Origin: an uncultured Phycisphaerae bacterium
GTDB lineage: Bacteria; Planctomycetota; Phycisphaerae; Sedimentisphaerales; Anaerohalosphaeraceae
Length of the DNA: 38,869 nt
Reading direction: 5' to 3'
Assembly: GCA_937949545.1 (NCBI GenBank)
Contig: CALEDR010000031.1
Coordinates: forward strand, 1 to 38,869
Below the pieces are notes generated by a model. It did not search any database. It was not told the DNA's origin and saw nothing but the letters and a program-made list of their open reading frames with translations. Position numbers and translations under genes: made by a program. Of this stretch, positions 6,220-12,325 are shown piece after piece. Positions within the stretch are counted from its first letter, which is position 1; every line of letters starts with the position of its first letter.

Positions 6220-6852
6220 ATGGCACGTTATCTTGAACCTACATGTCGGTTATGCCGGCGAGAAGGAATGAAGCTGATGCTCAAGGGCACACGGTGCGAG
6301 ACCTCCAAGTGTGCGATTGAGCGACGGGAAAAGAGCATGGCTCCCGGGATGCACGGCTGGCGCAGAGGGCGCTACAGCGATTACGGGGTTCGGCTTCGCG
6401 AAAAGCAGAAGGTCAAGCGGTATTACGGGCTGATGGAAAAGCAGTTTATGAGCATTTTCCGCGAAGCCGCCCGCCGGAAGGGCAATACGGGCCGCACACT
6501 GCTGGAACTTCTCGAGCGGCGTCTGGATAATGTGGTGTTTAAGCTGAACTTTGCCTCCTCCCGAAAGGCGGCCCGGCAGCTGATTGCACATGGGCATATT
6601 TATCTGAACGGCCGGCGCGTGGATATTCCGGACCGGTTGGTCAATATCGGCGACAAGATTACCCTGAAGAACTCGGATCGGACCCGCAAACTGGTGAAGG
6701 CCCAGCTGGAGGCCAATCCGAATTTTCAGGTGCAGGGCTGGCTTCAGCTGGATGCCTCCAAGCCGGCAGCCACCGTGGCGGCTCTGCCCTCCCGCGAGGA
6801 TGTTCAGCTGGCGATTGAAGAACACTTGGTTGTGGAGTTCTGTTCGAAATAA
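6220..6852 (+). CDS. rpsD: 30S ribosomal protein S4 (zinc-binding form)
   Basis: The 210-residue protein nucleates assembly of the 16S 5' domain and lies at the mRNA entry tunnel. The N-terminus holds C9, C12, C26 and C31, the spacing of the zinc-binding C+ form of S4. It is followed by 'PGMHGWRRGRYSDYGVRLRE'. The S4 RNA-binding domain 'RRLDNVVFKLNFASSRKAAR' and 'QLIAHGHIYLNGRRVDIPD' begins near residue 95. In several bacteria S4 represses the alpha operon through an mRNA leader. Here a folded intergenic segment separates this gene from rpoA. Confidence 0.97.
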   Translation: MARYLEPTCRLCRREGMKLMLKGTRCETSKCAIERREKSMAPGMHGWRRGRYSDYGVRLREKQKVKRYYGLMEKQFMSIFREAARRKGNTGRTLLELLERRLDNVVFKLNFASSRKAARQLIAHGHIYLNGRRVDIPDRLVNIGDKITLKNSDRTRKLVKAQLEANPNFQVQGWLQLDASKPAATVAALPSREDVQLAIEEHLVVEFCSK

Positions 6853-6868
6853 CGAATTATTGGAAAAC

Positions 6869-6937
6869 CGGGCGAATCCCAGAGAGTGGTTTTCTTCTCC
6901 TTTCGGCCCGAAGAAAATCACTGAGAACATTCGCCCG
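6869..6937 (+). promoter_or_regulatory. Two-tier hairpin in the rpsD-rpoA leader
   Basis: The gap between rpsD and rpoA can form an outer perfect 9-bp stem (6869-6877 with 6929-6937, CGGGCGAAT/ATTCGCCCG). Inside it is a 12-bp stem with one G-U pair (6886-6897 with 6910-6921), closed by a 12-base loop. A purine-rich internal loop (AGAGA facing TGAGAA) separates the two. There is no U-tract after it, so it is not a simple terminator. It ends 5 bases before the GGAGG of rpoA. A role in controlling rpoA or processing the message is inferred; the pairing itself is visible. Confidence 0.65.
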
Positions 6938-6954
6938 CTGCTGGAGGCCTGTGT

Positions 6955-7953
6955 ATGAGAATTACCTGGAGAGGTTTGGAACTGCCGACGCGTGTGCAGA
7001 AGGACTCGGACGTGTCCACCGACCGATACGGCCGGTTTATTATCGAGCCGTTTGAGCGGGGATTCGGCACGACGATTGGAAACAGTCTTCGGCGGATTCT
7101 GCTTTCTTCGCTGGAAGGCAGCGCCGTTGAGTCCATTAAGATTCAGAATGTCACGCATGAATTTACGTCCATCCCGGGTGTGATGGAAGACGTGACGGAT
7201 ATTGTTTTGAACGTCAAGCGTCTGGTGGTTCGGATGCAGGGCGACCAGCGCCGCACAGTGAAAGTGCGTGCGAATCAGGCCGGCCCTGTGACGGCGGGCA
7301 TGATTGAGTGCGACCCGGCGATTGAAATTATCAACAAAGATCTGGTGCTGGCGACGCTGACGGAAAATGTGAACTTTGAGATGGAAATGGTTGTGGGCAA
7401 CGGCCGCGGCTATTCGCCGGCTTCCGAGCGGATTGCAGCCTCCGACCGAGCGGAGCAGGAAATCGGCCGGATTGAGGTGGATGCAATTTATTCGCCGGTT
7501 CTGCGGGTGCGTTATAAGACGGAGGATACACGAGTCGGCCAGCGGACCAACTATGACAAGCTGATTCTGGAAATCTGGACGGACGGGACCGTCACACCGG
7601 AGATGGCTCTGGTGGAAGCGGGCAAGATTCTTCGCAAGTACATCAACCCGATTGTTCAGTATGACCAGCTGGGCAAAGAGACGGTGGAAGAAGCCGTCCA
7701 GGCCGAGCCGCAGCCGTCCAAGGCGGTCAATGAGGAACTGGCGGCCAAACTGGCGATGCCGATCGAGCAGCTGGAGCTGACGGTCCGATCGAGCAACTGC
7801 CTGGAATCGAACAATATTCAGACTGTCGGCCAGCTGGTGAAGATGACCGAGGCGGACCTGCTGAAGATTCGCAGTTTCGGGAAAACGAGTCTCCGGGAGG
7901 TCAAGCGGAAACTGGCGGAACTCGGATTGTCCTTGGGGATGACCGGCGTCTAA
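6955..7953 (+). CDS. rpoA: DNA-directed RNA polymerase alpha subunit
   Basis: The 332-residue subunit dimerises to start RNA polymerase assembly. Its C-terminal domain binds promoter UP elements and activators. The N-terminal domain shows 'GRFIIEPFERGFGTTIGNSL' and 'RRILLSSLEGSAVESIKI'. The C-terminal domain, about residues 255-332, has 'LELTVRSSNCLESNNIQTVG' and 'IRSFGKTSLREVKRKLAELG'. The length is normal. A strong GGAGG sits 7 bases before the ATG, right after a stable mRNA hairpin. It lies between rpsD and rplQ, as in most bacteria. Confidence 0.98.
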   Translation: MRITWRGLELPTRVQKDSDVSTDRYGRFIIEPFERGFGTTIGNSLRRILLSSLEGSAVESIKIQNVTHEFTSIPGVMEDVTDIVLNVKRLVVRMQGDQRRTVKVRANQAGPVTAGMIECDPAIEIINKDLVLATLTENVNFEMEMVVGNGRGYSPASERIAASDRAEQEIGRIEVDAIYSPVLRVRYKTEDTRVGQRTNYDKLILEIWTDGTVTPEMALVEAGKILRKYINPIVQYDQLGKETVEEAVQAEPQPSKAVNEELAAKLAMPIEQLELTVRSSNCLESNNIQTVGQLVKMTEADLLKIRSFGKTSLREVKRKLAELGLSLGMTGV

Positions 7954-7994: not shown

Positions 7995-8435
7995 ATGCGT
8001 CATCGGATAGCGGGAAGACAATTGGGGCGAACCAGCGAACATCGACTGGCCCTGCGTCGGAATCTGGCGGCTTCGCTGTTTGAACACGAAACGATTTCGA
8101 CGACGCTGGAGAAGGCCAAAGAGGTCCGCGGATTTGCCGAGAAACTGATTACACTGGCCAAGAAGGGCAATCTCCACGCCCGTCGGCAGGCCCTTCGTCT
8201 GCTGAACGACCGGGCGATTTACAAAGAAGAGGACGGCCGAATGGTCAAGGTCGGCACCGTCATCGGCAAGCTTTTCAGCGACATCGGCCCCCGTTTTCTG
8301 GATCGGCCGGGCGGCTATACGCGAATCATTCGCCTGCCCAAGCACCGCCTTGGCGACAACGGGCGTCTGGTGCTGCTTCAATTGGTTGAGCAGGGCAGCA
8401 AATCGGAACCGGAAAAGACCTCCAAGAAGTCCTAA
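7995..8435 (+). CDS. rplQ: 50S ribosomal protein L17
   Basis: The 146-residue protein opens 'MRHRIAGRQLGRTSEHRLAL' and contains 'RRNLAASLFEHETISTTLEK' and 'LFSDIGPRFLDRPGGYTRI', all diagnostic for L17. L17 lies beside the polypeptide exit tunnel. A GAGGTG precedes the ATG at a suitable distance. It is the last gene of the ribosomal-protein block and is followed 12 bases later by a strong intrinsic terminator. Confidence 0.97.
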   Translation: MRHRIAGRQLGRTSEHRLALRRNLAASLFEHETISTTLEKAKEVRGFAEKLITLAKKGNLHARRQALRLLNDRAIYKEEDGRMVKVGTVIGKLFSDIGPRFLDRPGGYTRIIRLPKHRLGDNGRLVLLQLVEQGSKSEPEKTSKKS

Positions 8436-9559: not shown

Positions 9560-10474
9560 ATGTTCCGAAGTTTTCTGACAGGGAGAAAAGAAAAGAAGGA
9601 GATAGAGCCGGTCAAGAGGTCGCCGGGAAAAGATGCCGTTCCCCTCGAACCCGCTGAGCTTTCCGGGCCCTCACAAATTCAGTTGGAACTCACAAGCCCA
9701 TCCAGGGAGGAACTCGCTCTGGTCTGCTCTCAGGGCCGGAAAGATTTAACCTGCTGCCGATATGAATTGAAGTACCGGATTACGGAGGGGAAAGCTCAGG
9801 CCATCCGAGATTTTGTTCAGTATTATTTGTTGGTGGATAAGTATGCATTGATGTATCCGGACCGGCAGTACCCCATTTCCAGTCTCTATTGGGACTCACC
9901 GGACCTTCGGCTGTGCCGGGAAACCCTTTCCGGCAAATTGAATCGGTTCAAACTTCGAATTCGCACGTATAGTGATTTGCCGCAGACCCCGCTGTTTTTA
10001 GAAGTAAAGCGGCGAGTGAATAAAGTGATTGTCAAAAGCCGGGCTCGAATCGAACGGTCGGAACTGCAGGCGGCCCTGGAGGGTACGCTGGACCTTCACG
10101 GCCGCTCCGAGAAAGACCGCCAGGCGCTCCAGCAGTTTTTGTTTTATAAGCAGACCCTTCAGGCCGAGCCGGTCGTTCTGGTTCGGTATATGCGGGAGGC
10201 CTATGAGGGAGAGGGCGGCAATCGGGTGCGGGTTACCTTTGATCGGCAGCTTCATTTCCGAAAACCGTACGGAATGGAGGTGATGCTGAACGGACAGGGC
10301 TGGCAGTCGGTTCCGGTTCCGTTTGTCGTTTTGGAAATCAAGTTTACGGATCATTATCCGGCCTGGCTGGAGAAGATGATTCGCTTGTTTGAACTGAATC
10401 TGTCGTCGATGTCCAAATATGTCTCCTCCGTTTCCTGTTTTTCGGAAGGGGCCCTGTTCAGATATCTGGAATGA
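9560..10474 (+). CDS. VTC-domain (CYTH superfamily) polyphosphate-polymerase-like protein
   Basis: The 304-residue protein matches the VTC domain, the catalytic tunnel fold of yeast Vtc4 that builds polyphosphate from ATP. A non-conserved, charged N-terminus of about 70 residues precedes it. The core carries paired basic and acidic residues typical of the tunnel: 'ELKYRI', 'NRFKLRIRTY', 'FLEVKRRVNKVIVKSRARIE', 'VLVRYMREAY', 'RVRVTFDR', 'VVLEIKFTDHYP' and the final 'MSKYVSSV'. All the expected charged positions appear to be present, so activity is plausible. No membrane segment is seen. The start is uncertain because no good ribosome-binding site precedes ATG 9560. It overlaps the DUF4956 gene by ATGA, and VTC/DUF4956/CotH neighbourhoods are known in other bacteria. 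Confidence 0.85.
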   Translation: MFRSFLTGRKEKKEIEPVKRSPGKDAVPLEPAELSGPSQIQLELTSPSREELALVCSQGRKDLTCCRYELKYRITEGKAQAIRDFVQYYLLVDKYALMYPDRQYPISSLYWDSPDLRLCRETLSGKLNRFKLRIRTYSDLPQTPLFLEVKRRVNKVIVKSRARIERSELQAALEGTLDLHGRSEKDRQALQQFLFYKQTLQAEPVVLVRYMREAYEGEGGNRVRVTFDRQLHFRKPYGMEVMLNGQGWQSVPVPFVVLEIKFTDHYPAWLEKMIRLFELNLSSMSKYVSSVSCFSEGALFRYLE

Positions 10475-11169
10475 TGGACGCTTTACAGCATCTATTTGAT
10501 GAACTTTCCTCGCAGACGGGAGCGGATGCTCTGACAGTGATTCTGTCGCTGCTGCTGGCGTTTGTGCTCGGACAGGTGCTGGCGTGGATTTATTTCTTTA
10601 CGCATCACGGGCTGTCGTATTCCAAATCCTTTGTGCAGTCGCTGATTGTGATTACGATGGTGGTGGCCCTTGTGATGACGACGATTGCCGGCAGCTTTGT
10701 GGTGGCGGTCGGTCTGATGGGGGCACTGTCGATTATCCGGTTTCGGAATATGATTAAGGACACGCGGGACATTGCTTTTTTGTTCTGCGCTCTGGTGATC
10801 GGTATGGCCTGCGGGTCCGGACGATATGCGATTGCCGTCATCGGCACGGCGGCCCTCGGACTGGTGCTGCTGTATCTGTACTGGGCGGATTTCGGAGCGT
10901 TTCATTCGAGCAATGCGCTGCTTCGGTTTACTTTTCACGGCGAACTGAACCCGGATCATCCGCTTTTTAAGGTGCTCCGGCGGTTTTGCCGGACGATTGT
11001 CCTGACCTCTTCGCAAAGCCGCGGGCCGGACCGTTCCCGGATGGATTACGCGTATCAGATTACCCTGCGGAAGGCCTCTCTGAATCAGCAGATGCTTTCC
11101 GAACTGCGGAAGATCGAAGGAATTGAGAATCTGAGTCTGGCGATTCAGGAGCAAATCCTTGAACTCTGA
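10471..11169 (+). CDS. DUF4956 family membrane protein
   Basis: The 232-residue protein has several hydrophobic segments (about residues 22-45, 55-90 and 100-140) and a soluble C-terminal half. The conserved 'GLMGALSIIRFRNMIKDTRD' followed by 'IAFLFCALVIGMACG' is the hallmark of DUF4956. The function of the family is not established. Its genes commonly sit next to VTC-domain and CotH genes, as here. The ATG overlaps the stop of the VTC gene, and the gene end overlaps the next gene by 11 bases, so the three products are probably made together. The C-terminal soluble domain could contact the VTC enzyme or the fusion protein; that is inference. Confidence 0.85.
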   Translation: MMDALQHLFDELSSQTGADALTVILSLLLAFVLGQVLAWIYFFTHHGLSYSKSFVQSLIVITMVVALVMTTIAGSFVVAVGLMGALSIIRFRNMIKDTRDIAFLFCALVIGMACGSGRYAIAVIGTAALGLVLLYLYWADFGAFHSSNALLRFTFHGELNPDHPLFKVLRRFCRTIVLTSSQSRGPDRSRMDYAYQITLRKASLNQQMLSELRKIEGIENLSLAIQEQILEL

Positions 11170-12325
11170 CCGGAAAAACATTTCAAAGAGACGGGGGCAT
11201 ATTCTGGCGGGTCTGCTGCCGGTGTTGGTGTGGCTGGCGGCGCTGGCGGCGGTTTGTTATCTTTTTGTTGCCCGTCACGGGCGGTTTTCGATGGTGGGAA
11301 TCGCCGGTTCGCAGACCTGTGTTTTTACCGCTCCTGATTCCGGATGGGTTGTCTCGGTCCCGGTTCATCTGTATCAGACGGTCCGCCGGGGCCAGCCCCT
11401 GGCGGTGCTGCGGATGATGCCGCCGGCGGAAGTCGAGCGGTCTCGTGTCCAGCTGGAAGCGGAGAAAGCGGCGGCCCTGACGGAGCTGGAATATCGGAAA
11501 CTTCAGGCCGAACAGATGATTCGGCAGCTGGCCGCCGGACAGTCTCGAGAGCGCCTGGAACAGCTGTATCGCGAGCATCAGATGGCCTTGGATGCGGAAC
11601 GGACTCGGCTGCTGATTCTGGAGATTCAGACGCGTCTTGAACCGGCTCGCATTCAGCTCAAAGACCTCGAAAATGAACAGCGAGTCCTCGAAGATCTGCT
11701 GGCCAAGAAGGCGATAGAACCGTACGAACTCCAGAAAGTCCGCGTTCAGGCGGAGGCCCTGGCGGTTCAGATTGCTCAGGACCAGCAGCGGCTGGAGCAG
11801 GCCCGACAGGATTATCAGATGCTTCAGGAGCGCCTGGAGGCCTTCCGGGCTTCGGCTGGTTCGGTTTCTCCGGAGCCGATGCTGTCTCTGGAGCCGCTTC
11901 GGCGGGCCATTGTCCAGCAGGAAAAGCGGCTGGAGGATCTTTCGGCCCTCCATTTTGATGTGGTTCTGGAAGCGCCTTTTGACGGGATTGTTGCAGCCGT
12001 CGGCTGTACGGCCGGCCAGACCGTCAGCCGGGATATGCCGATTCTGACGCTGGTGGCGCCGTCTGTGGATTTTGTGACGGCCTGGATTCCGCAGGAGCAA
12101 AGCGGCTCGCTGGCACTGCATCAGCCGGTCGAACTCATCAAGACGTCCTCTCCCCGAAAGGTCCTCCGTTCTGAAGTCGCTGAAATCGGGCCGATGGTGG
12201 AACTGATGCCGGAACGGCTCTGGAAAAATCCGTCGGTTCCGGAGTGGGGCCGACCCGTTCGGATTCCGGTGCATCCGGATATGCAGCTGCTTCCGAATGA
12301 ACTGGTTGGAATTCGCGGCATTTAG
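11159..12325 (+). CDS. HlyD-type membrane-fusion (periplasmic adaptor) protein
   Basis: The 388-residue protein has one N-terminal membrane helix (about residues 15-37). A split lipoyl/barrel-sandwich domain follows, with first half 'FTAPDSGWVVSVPVHLYQTV' and second half 'VLEAPFDGIVAAVGCTAGQT'. Between the halves lies a long Gln/Glu/Leu-rich coiled coil of roughly 160 residues. A beta-barrel segment comes after ('VDFVTAWIPQEQSG'). This is the layout of adaptors that bridge an inner-membrane component to a TolC-like channel. The TTG at 11159 is chosen because AGGAG lies 7 bases upstream; it overlaps the DUF4956 gene by 11 bases. No ABC, RND or MFS transporter is encoded nearby, so its inner-membrane partner may be the DUF4956 protein. 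Confidence 0.85.
   Translation: MNSDRKNISKRRGHILAGLLPVLVWLAALAAVCYLFVARHGRFSMVGIAGSQTCVFTAPDSGWVVSVPVHLYQTVRRGQPLAVLRMMPPAEVERSRVQLEAEKAAALTELEYRKLQAEQMIRQLAAGQSRERLEQLYREHQMALDAERTRLLILEIQTRLEPARIQLKDLENEQRVLEDLLAKKAIEPYELQKVRVQAEALAVQIAQDQQRLEQARQDYQMLQERLEAFRASAGSVSPEPMLSLEPLRRAIVQQEKRLEDLSALHFDVVLEAPFDGIVAAVGCTAGQTVSRDMPILTLVAPSVDFVTAWIPQEQSGSLALHQPVELIKTSSPRKVLRSEVAEIGPMVELMPERLWKNPSVPEWGRPVRIPVHPDMQLLPNELVGIRGI

Follow-up and report, generated by a model that had tools for sequence, protein, structure and literature searches.

The window, by which we mean the whole stretch of 38,869 nucleotides that was analysed, carries a ribosomal protein operon with the gene order ...rpsM-rpsK-rpsD-rpoA-rplQ. 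The gaps between genes from rpsM to rplQ measure 41-48 nt, except for the 102 nt that separate rpsD from rpoA, and it is in this gap, at positions 6869-6937, that a two-tier RNA structure is found. The features of the locus are as follows.

6220..6852, plus strand: rpsD, ribosomal protein S4 (Pfam Ribosomal_S4); upstream neighbour in the window, missing from the operon of other element-bearing genomes.
6869..6877, plus strand: 5' strand of the outer stem, CGGGCGAAT (sequence and fold; among 34 sequences, each of the 9 outer pairs shows two-sided changes at some point).
6878..6884, plus strand: 5' side of the internal loop, CCCAGAG (alignments; the CAGA core is also present in other types).
6885..6897, plus strand: 5' strand of the inner stem (fold; in the 34 order sequences, two-sided changes are seen at 8 of 10 inner pairs).
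6898..6909, plus strand: apical loop, TCCTTTCGGCCC, with GGCC at 6905-6908 as the proposed pseudoknot strand.
6910..6922, plus strand: 3' strand of the inner stem (fold and covariation).
6923..6928, plus strand: 3' side of the internal loop, GAGAAC, near-invariant in 34 aligned members that were picked partly by that motif.
6929..6937, plus strand: 3' strand of the outer stem, ATTCGCCCG (sequence, fold and covariation).
6943..6947, plus strand: Shine-Dalgarno (SD) sequence of rpoA, GGAGG (sequence; conserved in the order alignment).
6946..6949, plus strand: GGCC, which overlaps the SD and is the putative strand that pairs with the apical loop in the pseudoknot (the types of loop and SD vary in concert).
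6955..7953, plus strand: rpoA, RNA polymerase alpha subunit (Pfam RNA_pol_A_bac, RNA_pol_L, RNA_pol_A_CTD); the element travels with this gene.
7995..8435, plus strand: rplQ, ribosomal protein bL17 (Pfam Ribosomal_L17); next gene 3' and candidate effector gene.

A preliminary description of the window had placed a two-tier structure in what it called the only long gap in the 3' half of the operon, with a perfect 9-bp outer stem, a purine-rich internal loop and five bases between the structure and the ribosome-binding site, and all of this was confirmed. The strands CGGGCGAAT and ATTCGCCCG form 9 pairs, the internal loop reads CCCAGAG / GAGAAC, and positions 6938-6942 lie between the outer stem and GGAGG. 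The inner stem is also present, but it comprises 13 pairs including one G-U (6885-6897/6910-6922) and not the 12 described. On its 3' side the element is followed by GGAGGCC and then by the rpoA ATG at 6955. The window element has a minimum free energy of -33.5 kcal/mol (z -1.95), with 8 of 200 shuffles equally good, and the folding energy of this single sequence is only suggestive of a structure. Among relatives, a folding z below -2 was obtained for 25 of 34 members from the window's order and for 14 of 16 sequences of a second type described below. The two-tier hairpin is real and conserved, a conclusion based on the low folding z of the relatives and their strong covariation and not on the window energy alone. 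Farther along, after the operon, positions 9560-12325 of the window hold a VTC-domain gene and a DUF4956 gene (both by Pfam) and, by eye, a gene resembling HlyD-type membrane-fusion proteins; a plasmid DNA search gave no match.

The rpoA-upstream loci inspected were 50 from 59 relatives and 80 named loci, some contigs being shared. Families are labelled with f numbers, f1 being the window's own. The window's source is a planctomycete of the class Phycisphaerae, probably of the order Sedimentisphaerales, which taxonomy assigns to that class, since several f1 members share identical spacers with records named as Phycisphaerae or Sedimentisphaerales bacteria. The order alignment (A1) comprises 34 distinct elements with the internal-loop pattern, taken from rpoA loci with rpsD upstream and with identical ones entered once. 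Compensatory changes in the relatives' spacers upstream of rpoA, which had been put forward as a check in the preliminary description, were found here: both sides vary at 17 of the 19 pairs, pairing holds in 83.4% of cells (71.8% when shuffled), and the covariation score is 0.447, against 0.253 for shuffled alignments and at most 0.189 for slid partners, relatedness being uncorrected. The second type (16 sequences) shows such changes at 12 of 13 pairs, with a covariation score of 0.846 (0.213 shuffled, at most 0.230 slid), and a third variant in f13 (10 sequences) at 13 of 17, with a score of 0.580 (0.247 shuffled). None of 500 shuffles reached the score of the order, second-type or f13 alignment. 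Sequence comparison establishes the structure and its covariation, and a covarying structure 5' of an operon gene is what generally marks the leader RNAs of ribosomal protein operons.

A covariance model built from the 34-sequence order alignment (R1) gave matches in 51 of 161 genomes of the order at E<=1 and in 45 at E<=1e-6. All 45 strong matches lie directly 5' of rpoA, as seen by reading 30 of the loci and by comparing rpoA positions for the other 15. The element is present in 31 of the 39 genomes of f1 (weakly in G010, E 0.016), and the 8 genomes without it are the same 8 that have no full-length rpoA match. Of 397 genomes of the class, 37 had an R1 match at E<=0.05, and all of these belong to the same order. 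Family f7, which belongs to this order, had no R1 match at E<=1e-6; five of its genomes have weak matches, which sit at loci without any of the 12 operon genes searched for, rpoA included. A pattern search of the window's own genome found the element once. Weak second R1 matches in G000 and G003 (E 0.35 and 0.55) lie inside open reading frames and were rejected as further copies.

Two side observations concern rpoA itself. G023 carries two rpoA copies (L021 and L038), 75% and 70% identical to the rpoA of the window. The element precedes one of them, and the other follows a 69-nt spacer that lacks it; contamination may be involved. In G000:C45, the minus strand of L336:1266-2570 encodes a 434-aa TPR protein with tandem copies of the RpoA C-terminal domain at its C-terminus (Pfam RNA_pol_A_CTD, two stretches, E 2.6e-42), and similar alpha-CTD matches, often paired and in open frames of ~430-470 aa, occur in nearly all relatives searched.

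The second type was found in other families of the class by folding the rpoA-upstream stretch of genomes with rpsK directly before rpoA. It has the same architecture, with CAGAAG / CCGAGAG or GCGTGAA as the internal loop. Sixteen of 22 candidates, selected partly by the internal loop, entered its alignment (A5); L086, L092, L210, L236 and L239 were left out and L244 was dropped for misalignment. The sharing of the CAGA core is to be read with the fact that the aligned members of the first two types were chosen partly by their internal-loop motif. At E<=0.1, the covariance model of the second type (R2) matched 21 out of 100 regions lying upstream of rpoA, including 7 training members. These comprise all 10 regions of f22, one of them matched in part only, together with 10 of the 14 in f10 and 1 of the 2 in f20. 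The 74 regions from the remaining families and from other classes gave no match; f25 is among them, although in two of its regions a loop match is visible by eye. Over 258 genomes of the class, R2 gave 16 matches, 14 before rpoA and 2 elsewhere, under strict filters that miss known members. The third variant is found in all 10 regions of f13, which share a stem with a CAGATG / GGGAAC-like internal loop. In these regions (L192-L201), highly conserved CGAGG / CAAT strands were also seen to form an extra outer tier, and no partner was found for the loop.

R1 matched none of 100 rpoA-upstream regions of other families and classes, R2 gave only chance-level matches, away from the element, on 13 sources from the order including the window, and neither model matched 20 regions from other classes. 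Since R1 and R2 do not find each other's members, common descent of the types would rest on position, the two-tier architecture, the CAGA-type loop and the downstream pairing discussed below. Conservation of the internal loop is strong within each type, and the sequences of the inner stem and the loop vary freely with pairing maintained. No recognisable element was found in f7 of the order or in f14, f16, f17, f18, f19, f23, f26 and f11 of the class, and the element is therefore dispensable in these families. By eye, several f16 genomes (L177-L189) in which rpsD adjoins rpoA show, in place of the element, a small GTCC...GGAC hairpin that directly abuts the rpoA SD.

We propose, as a new feature of this analysis, base pairing between the apical loop and the rpoA initiation region, which would make the element a pseudoknot, an arrangement predicted from matched sequence variation. 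In the window's order, loop GGCC stands opposite GGAGGCC, and in 38 of 40 hand-chosen members the loop and the SD region can form 4 or more Watson-Crick pairs. In the two exceptions (L018 and L030) pairing is possible by eye with one G-U. Three f5 members were left out of the count; by eye, GGCCTC faces GAGGCC in L047 and L049, and L050 is ambiguous. The match is usually only 4-5 pairs long. A swap test between loops and SD regions (4.35 vs 4.25 pairs, 4809 of 20,000 permutations as good) is uninformative in this order because nearly all members share GGCC, and it was replaced by the association of loop type with SD type. Of 31 members with GGCC at the SD, 30 also have it in the loop, compared with 1 of 9 members with another SD (Fisher p 1e-6, relatedness uncorrected). 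By eye, the types change in about four lineages, and the matched variants pair GCCT with AGGC (L005, L019, L020 and L022), AGACC with GGTCT (L035), and TTGCC with GGCAA (L045 and L046).

In the second type, 29 sequences could be compared, namely the 16 aligned ones and 13 of the 14 R2 matches outside the training set (L235, partial, was left out). The longest loop match averaged 6.38 pairs (range 4-9), compared with 4.24 for swapped loops, and none of 50,000 permutations did as well. At least 6 pairs between loop and partner were present in 23 of the 29, and in 17% of swapped pairs. The 3' end of the partner strand lies 11-29 nt before the ATG, i.e. near or just upstream of the SD. CAGCAG-like loops recur, other loops share few letters with these, and sequence turnover is considerable. 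A motif-free version of the test also gave an excess in f10 (7.93 vs 5.88, 0 of 20,000 permutations), in f22 (7.00 vs 5.66, 91), in 16 named-record loci (7.06 vs 5.85, 5) and in the whole order (6.47 vs 5.54, 0), where the test window can include the outer stem; f7 was borderline (5.73 vs 5.10, 338). The control groups showed no significant excess, with 5.50 vs 5.12 in f16 (1576 of 20,000), 5.00 vs 4.83 in f17 (9991), 5.00 vs 5.45 in f19 (19011) and 5.50 vs 5.16 in other classes (1960). Family f13 gave no significant excess either (5.50 vs 5.19, 3688 of 20,000), and its downstream contact, if any, would thus differ. The matched loop-SD complementarity of the two other types is well established from these comparisons, and pairing with the SD or the stretch before it would carry the structure to the ribosome binding site, as in ribosomal-protein leaders; no such contact was found in f13.

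The most probable reading, in which we have good though not full confidence, is an rpoA-specific, cis-acting translational control element within a polycistronic ribosomal-protein mRNA. The hairpin, made up of the outer stem, the conserved CAGA-type internal loop and the variable inner stem, would present the apical loop, which would pair with the rpoA initiation region to give the pseudoknot. Pairing would cover part of the SD in the window's order and fall near or just upstream of it in the second type, and in either position it could hinder 30S loading. The paired form may be stabilised or locked by an effector, most likely a protein that recognises both the internal loop and the pseudoknot, and initiation at rpoA, and perhaps at rplQ, would then be lowered separately from the upstream genes. 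We infer that the element represses and that an effector exists. An uncharacterised alpha control element had been among the suggestions of the preliminary description, and that suggestion has gained ground with an element that is conserved, covarying, tied to rpoA and equipped with a loop complementary to the rpoA SD region.

A structure acting without any ligand could set a fixed low initiation rate or insulate rpoA from translation of the gene upstream, and the turnover of inner stem and loop sequences with pairing preserved would suit such a role. So would the long spacers that hold the element (in f10, for example, 123-277 nt, and in f22 128-204 nt), compared with 24-60 nt in the element-less families f14, f17, f18 and f23. 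Long spacers without the element exist, however, in three f19 regions (327-341 nt), and the internal loop is conserved within each type beyond the needs of a passive clamp. We consider a ligand-free role unlikely, while keeping it ahead of the other alternatives.

The S4 protein was considered as a regulator, the preliminary description having also raised the possibility of an S4 element. Under this reading, free S4 would bind the pseudoknot and repress rpoA-rplQ as it does at the E. coli alpha operon. The S4 gene lies directly upstream in the window, in whose family rpsD and the element stand together, and the E. coli S4 operator is likewise an SD-embracing pseudoknot (PMC10931766). The distribution of the element across the class points the other way. 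G050 and G054 have the operon rpsM-rpsK-element-rpoA-rplQ, without rpsD, and rpsK is directly 5' of rpoA in all 28 regions of f10, f13, f20 and f25 and in 9 of 10 in f22; the element has been retained after rpsD left the operon. Around 16 rpsD genes located elsewhere, neither R1 nor R2 gave a significant match (best E 0.39), and families with rpsD adjacent to rpoA (f14, f16, f17, f18, f23, f26 and part of f19) had none. The element thus follows rpoA and not rpsD. Adjacency of rpsK alone does not predict it, as one f11 region (43-nt gap) and 3 of 7 f19 regions (327-341 nt) have rpsK before rpoA and no element. As a separate observation, f4, f10 and f22, whose operon is without rpsD, carry a diverged S4 gene elsewhere (L305-L320), 38-46% identical to the S4 of the window.

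Resemblance to the S4 binding site on rRNA was also considered. By eye, CAGAAG, the CCAGCAG loop and GCGTGAA look like helix h18 of 16S rRNA, but local alignment against three 16S sequences did not bear out such mimicry. The second type shows a weak excess of best 16S matches at h18 (4, 4 and 2 of 16, ~1.2 expected), due in part to CCAGCAG, whereas the order members are at chance (4, 2 and 3 of 34, ~2.6 expected). An internal-loop pattern scan of the 16S and 23S rRNA of 5 genomes found no strand pair common between genomes and none that clearly exceeded shuffles; its best scores of 7-12 compare with random maxima of up to 14 (16S) and 11 (23S). This test is weak, since just 8 of the 14 known elements used as a positive control were picked up. 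No known Rfam S4 leader family was found at the element, and positions 6869-6957 of the window are without GTAA, GUAA being a motif of the S4 leaders of Firmicutes and Fusobacteria (PMC7247131). An S4 operator at rpsM in the class was considered separately: the E. coli alpha operon family RF00140 gave sub-threshold matches in 17 of 148 genomes, none above the cut-off, and the 10 of the 17 that were inspected all overlap the rpsM start (L321-L330). These were dropped as evidence because much of the match falls on rpsM codons inside the model. With the element kept in rpsM-rpsK-rpoA-rplQ operons without rpsD and not found near the 16 relocated rpsD genes, the S4 suggestion finds little support, and we regard an S4 operator as distinctly improbable.

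Stable hairpins that separate the cistrons of long operons can serve as cleavage sites or block decay, and the preliminary description had also suggested an RNase processing site. However, a processing or stability site for RNase III or RNase E between the ribosomal-protein and rpoA cistrons predicts neither compensated loop-SD pairing nor a conserved internal loop, and we think it very unlikely. A riboswitch, with a small molecule bound by the internal loop, is hardly credible, since the compact conserved internal loop beside a pseudoknot reaching the SD would fit but the pattern occurs once in the own genome, strong R1 matches lie only before rpoA, and no riboswitch family appeared in 20 loci scanned with Rfam.

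For the favoured rpoA-specific control element, the preferred candidate effectors among the operon proteins are bL17, uS11 and uS13. They rank ahead of S4 because rplQ, rpsK and rpsM are retained in operons from which rpsD has gone, as judged in element loci with flanks long enough to read. A more far-reaching and tentative possibility is that the element serves across the class as an RNA switch for alpha, which would read an operon product other than S4 (bL17, uS11, uS13 or alpha itself) and uncouple alpha synthesis from that of the ribosomal proteins. According to a review, S4 repression at the E. coli alpha operon acts on the ribosomal genes and spares the rpoA cistron, which is said to be regulated independently (PMC10931766), and a class-wide switch, if true, would provide such regulation with a mechanism. 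The question becomes directly testable with a proposed pseudoknot that is conserved, covaries and accompanies rpoA in many families of a single class: the RNA is defined, candidate effectors are few, and compensatory variants occur naturally in large number.

Searches against known RNA families returned nothing at the element. No Rfam 15 family reached its gathering score there, and at E<=10 the stretch 6830-6980 gave two minus-strand matches, L31-Firmicutes (E 0.84) and sR28 (E 1.9), which fall far short of their cut-offs and which we attribute to chance. Rfam at E<=0.5 gave no match at the element in 20 related loci, and at E<=5 none around rpsM of the window. Alpha_RBS (RF00140, gathering score 38 bits) did not match at the window element or at that of the 20 related loci; four sub-threshold matches (L040, L100, L107 and L108) all lie elsewhere in the operon. 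No L17 family was among the Rfam matches at the element, although Rfam may not include the L17 leader. In the portions of the open-access literature that were searched, we found no report of an RNA leader dedicated to rpoA: the main text of a survey of 20 leaders does not include planctomycetes (PMC7247131), and that of a survey of 104 motifs does not mention rpoA (PMC2864571).

Several published systems share features with the element. The S4 leaders of Bacteroidia, Clostridia, Flavobacteria and Fusobacteriales covary and are associated with gene sets that include rpsD, rpoA and rplQ, but their gene lists in Table 1 of the survey start with rpsD or rpsM (PMC7247131). The L17 leader of Actino- and Proteobacteria and the L17 downstream element of Firmicutes are likewise RNAs tied to the rplQ end of the operon; the former belongs to rplQ alone and the latter follows L17 genes, whereas the present element precedes rpoA (PMC7247131). 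The alpha operon RBS (RF00140), the S4 operator of E. coli, is similar in operon type and in being a pseudoknot that includes the ribosome binding site, but it is located at the rpsM start and not before rpoA. The S15 operators on rpsO control another gene and have no family match with the present element. They are nevertheless pseudoknots that, like the two arrangements proposed here, either embrace the SD, as in E. coli, where the S4 and S15 pseudoknots both include the initiation region, or lie upstream of the initiation site, as in mycobacteria (PMC10931766).
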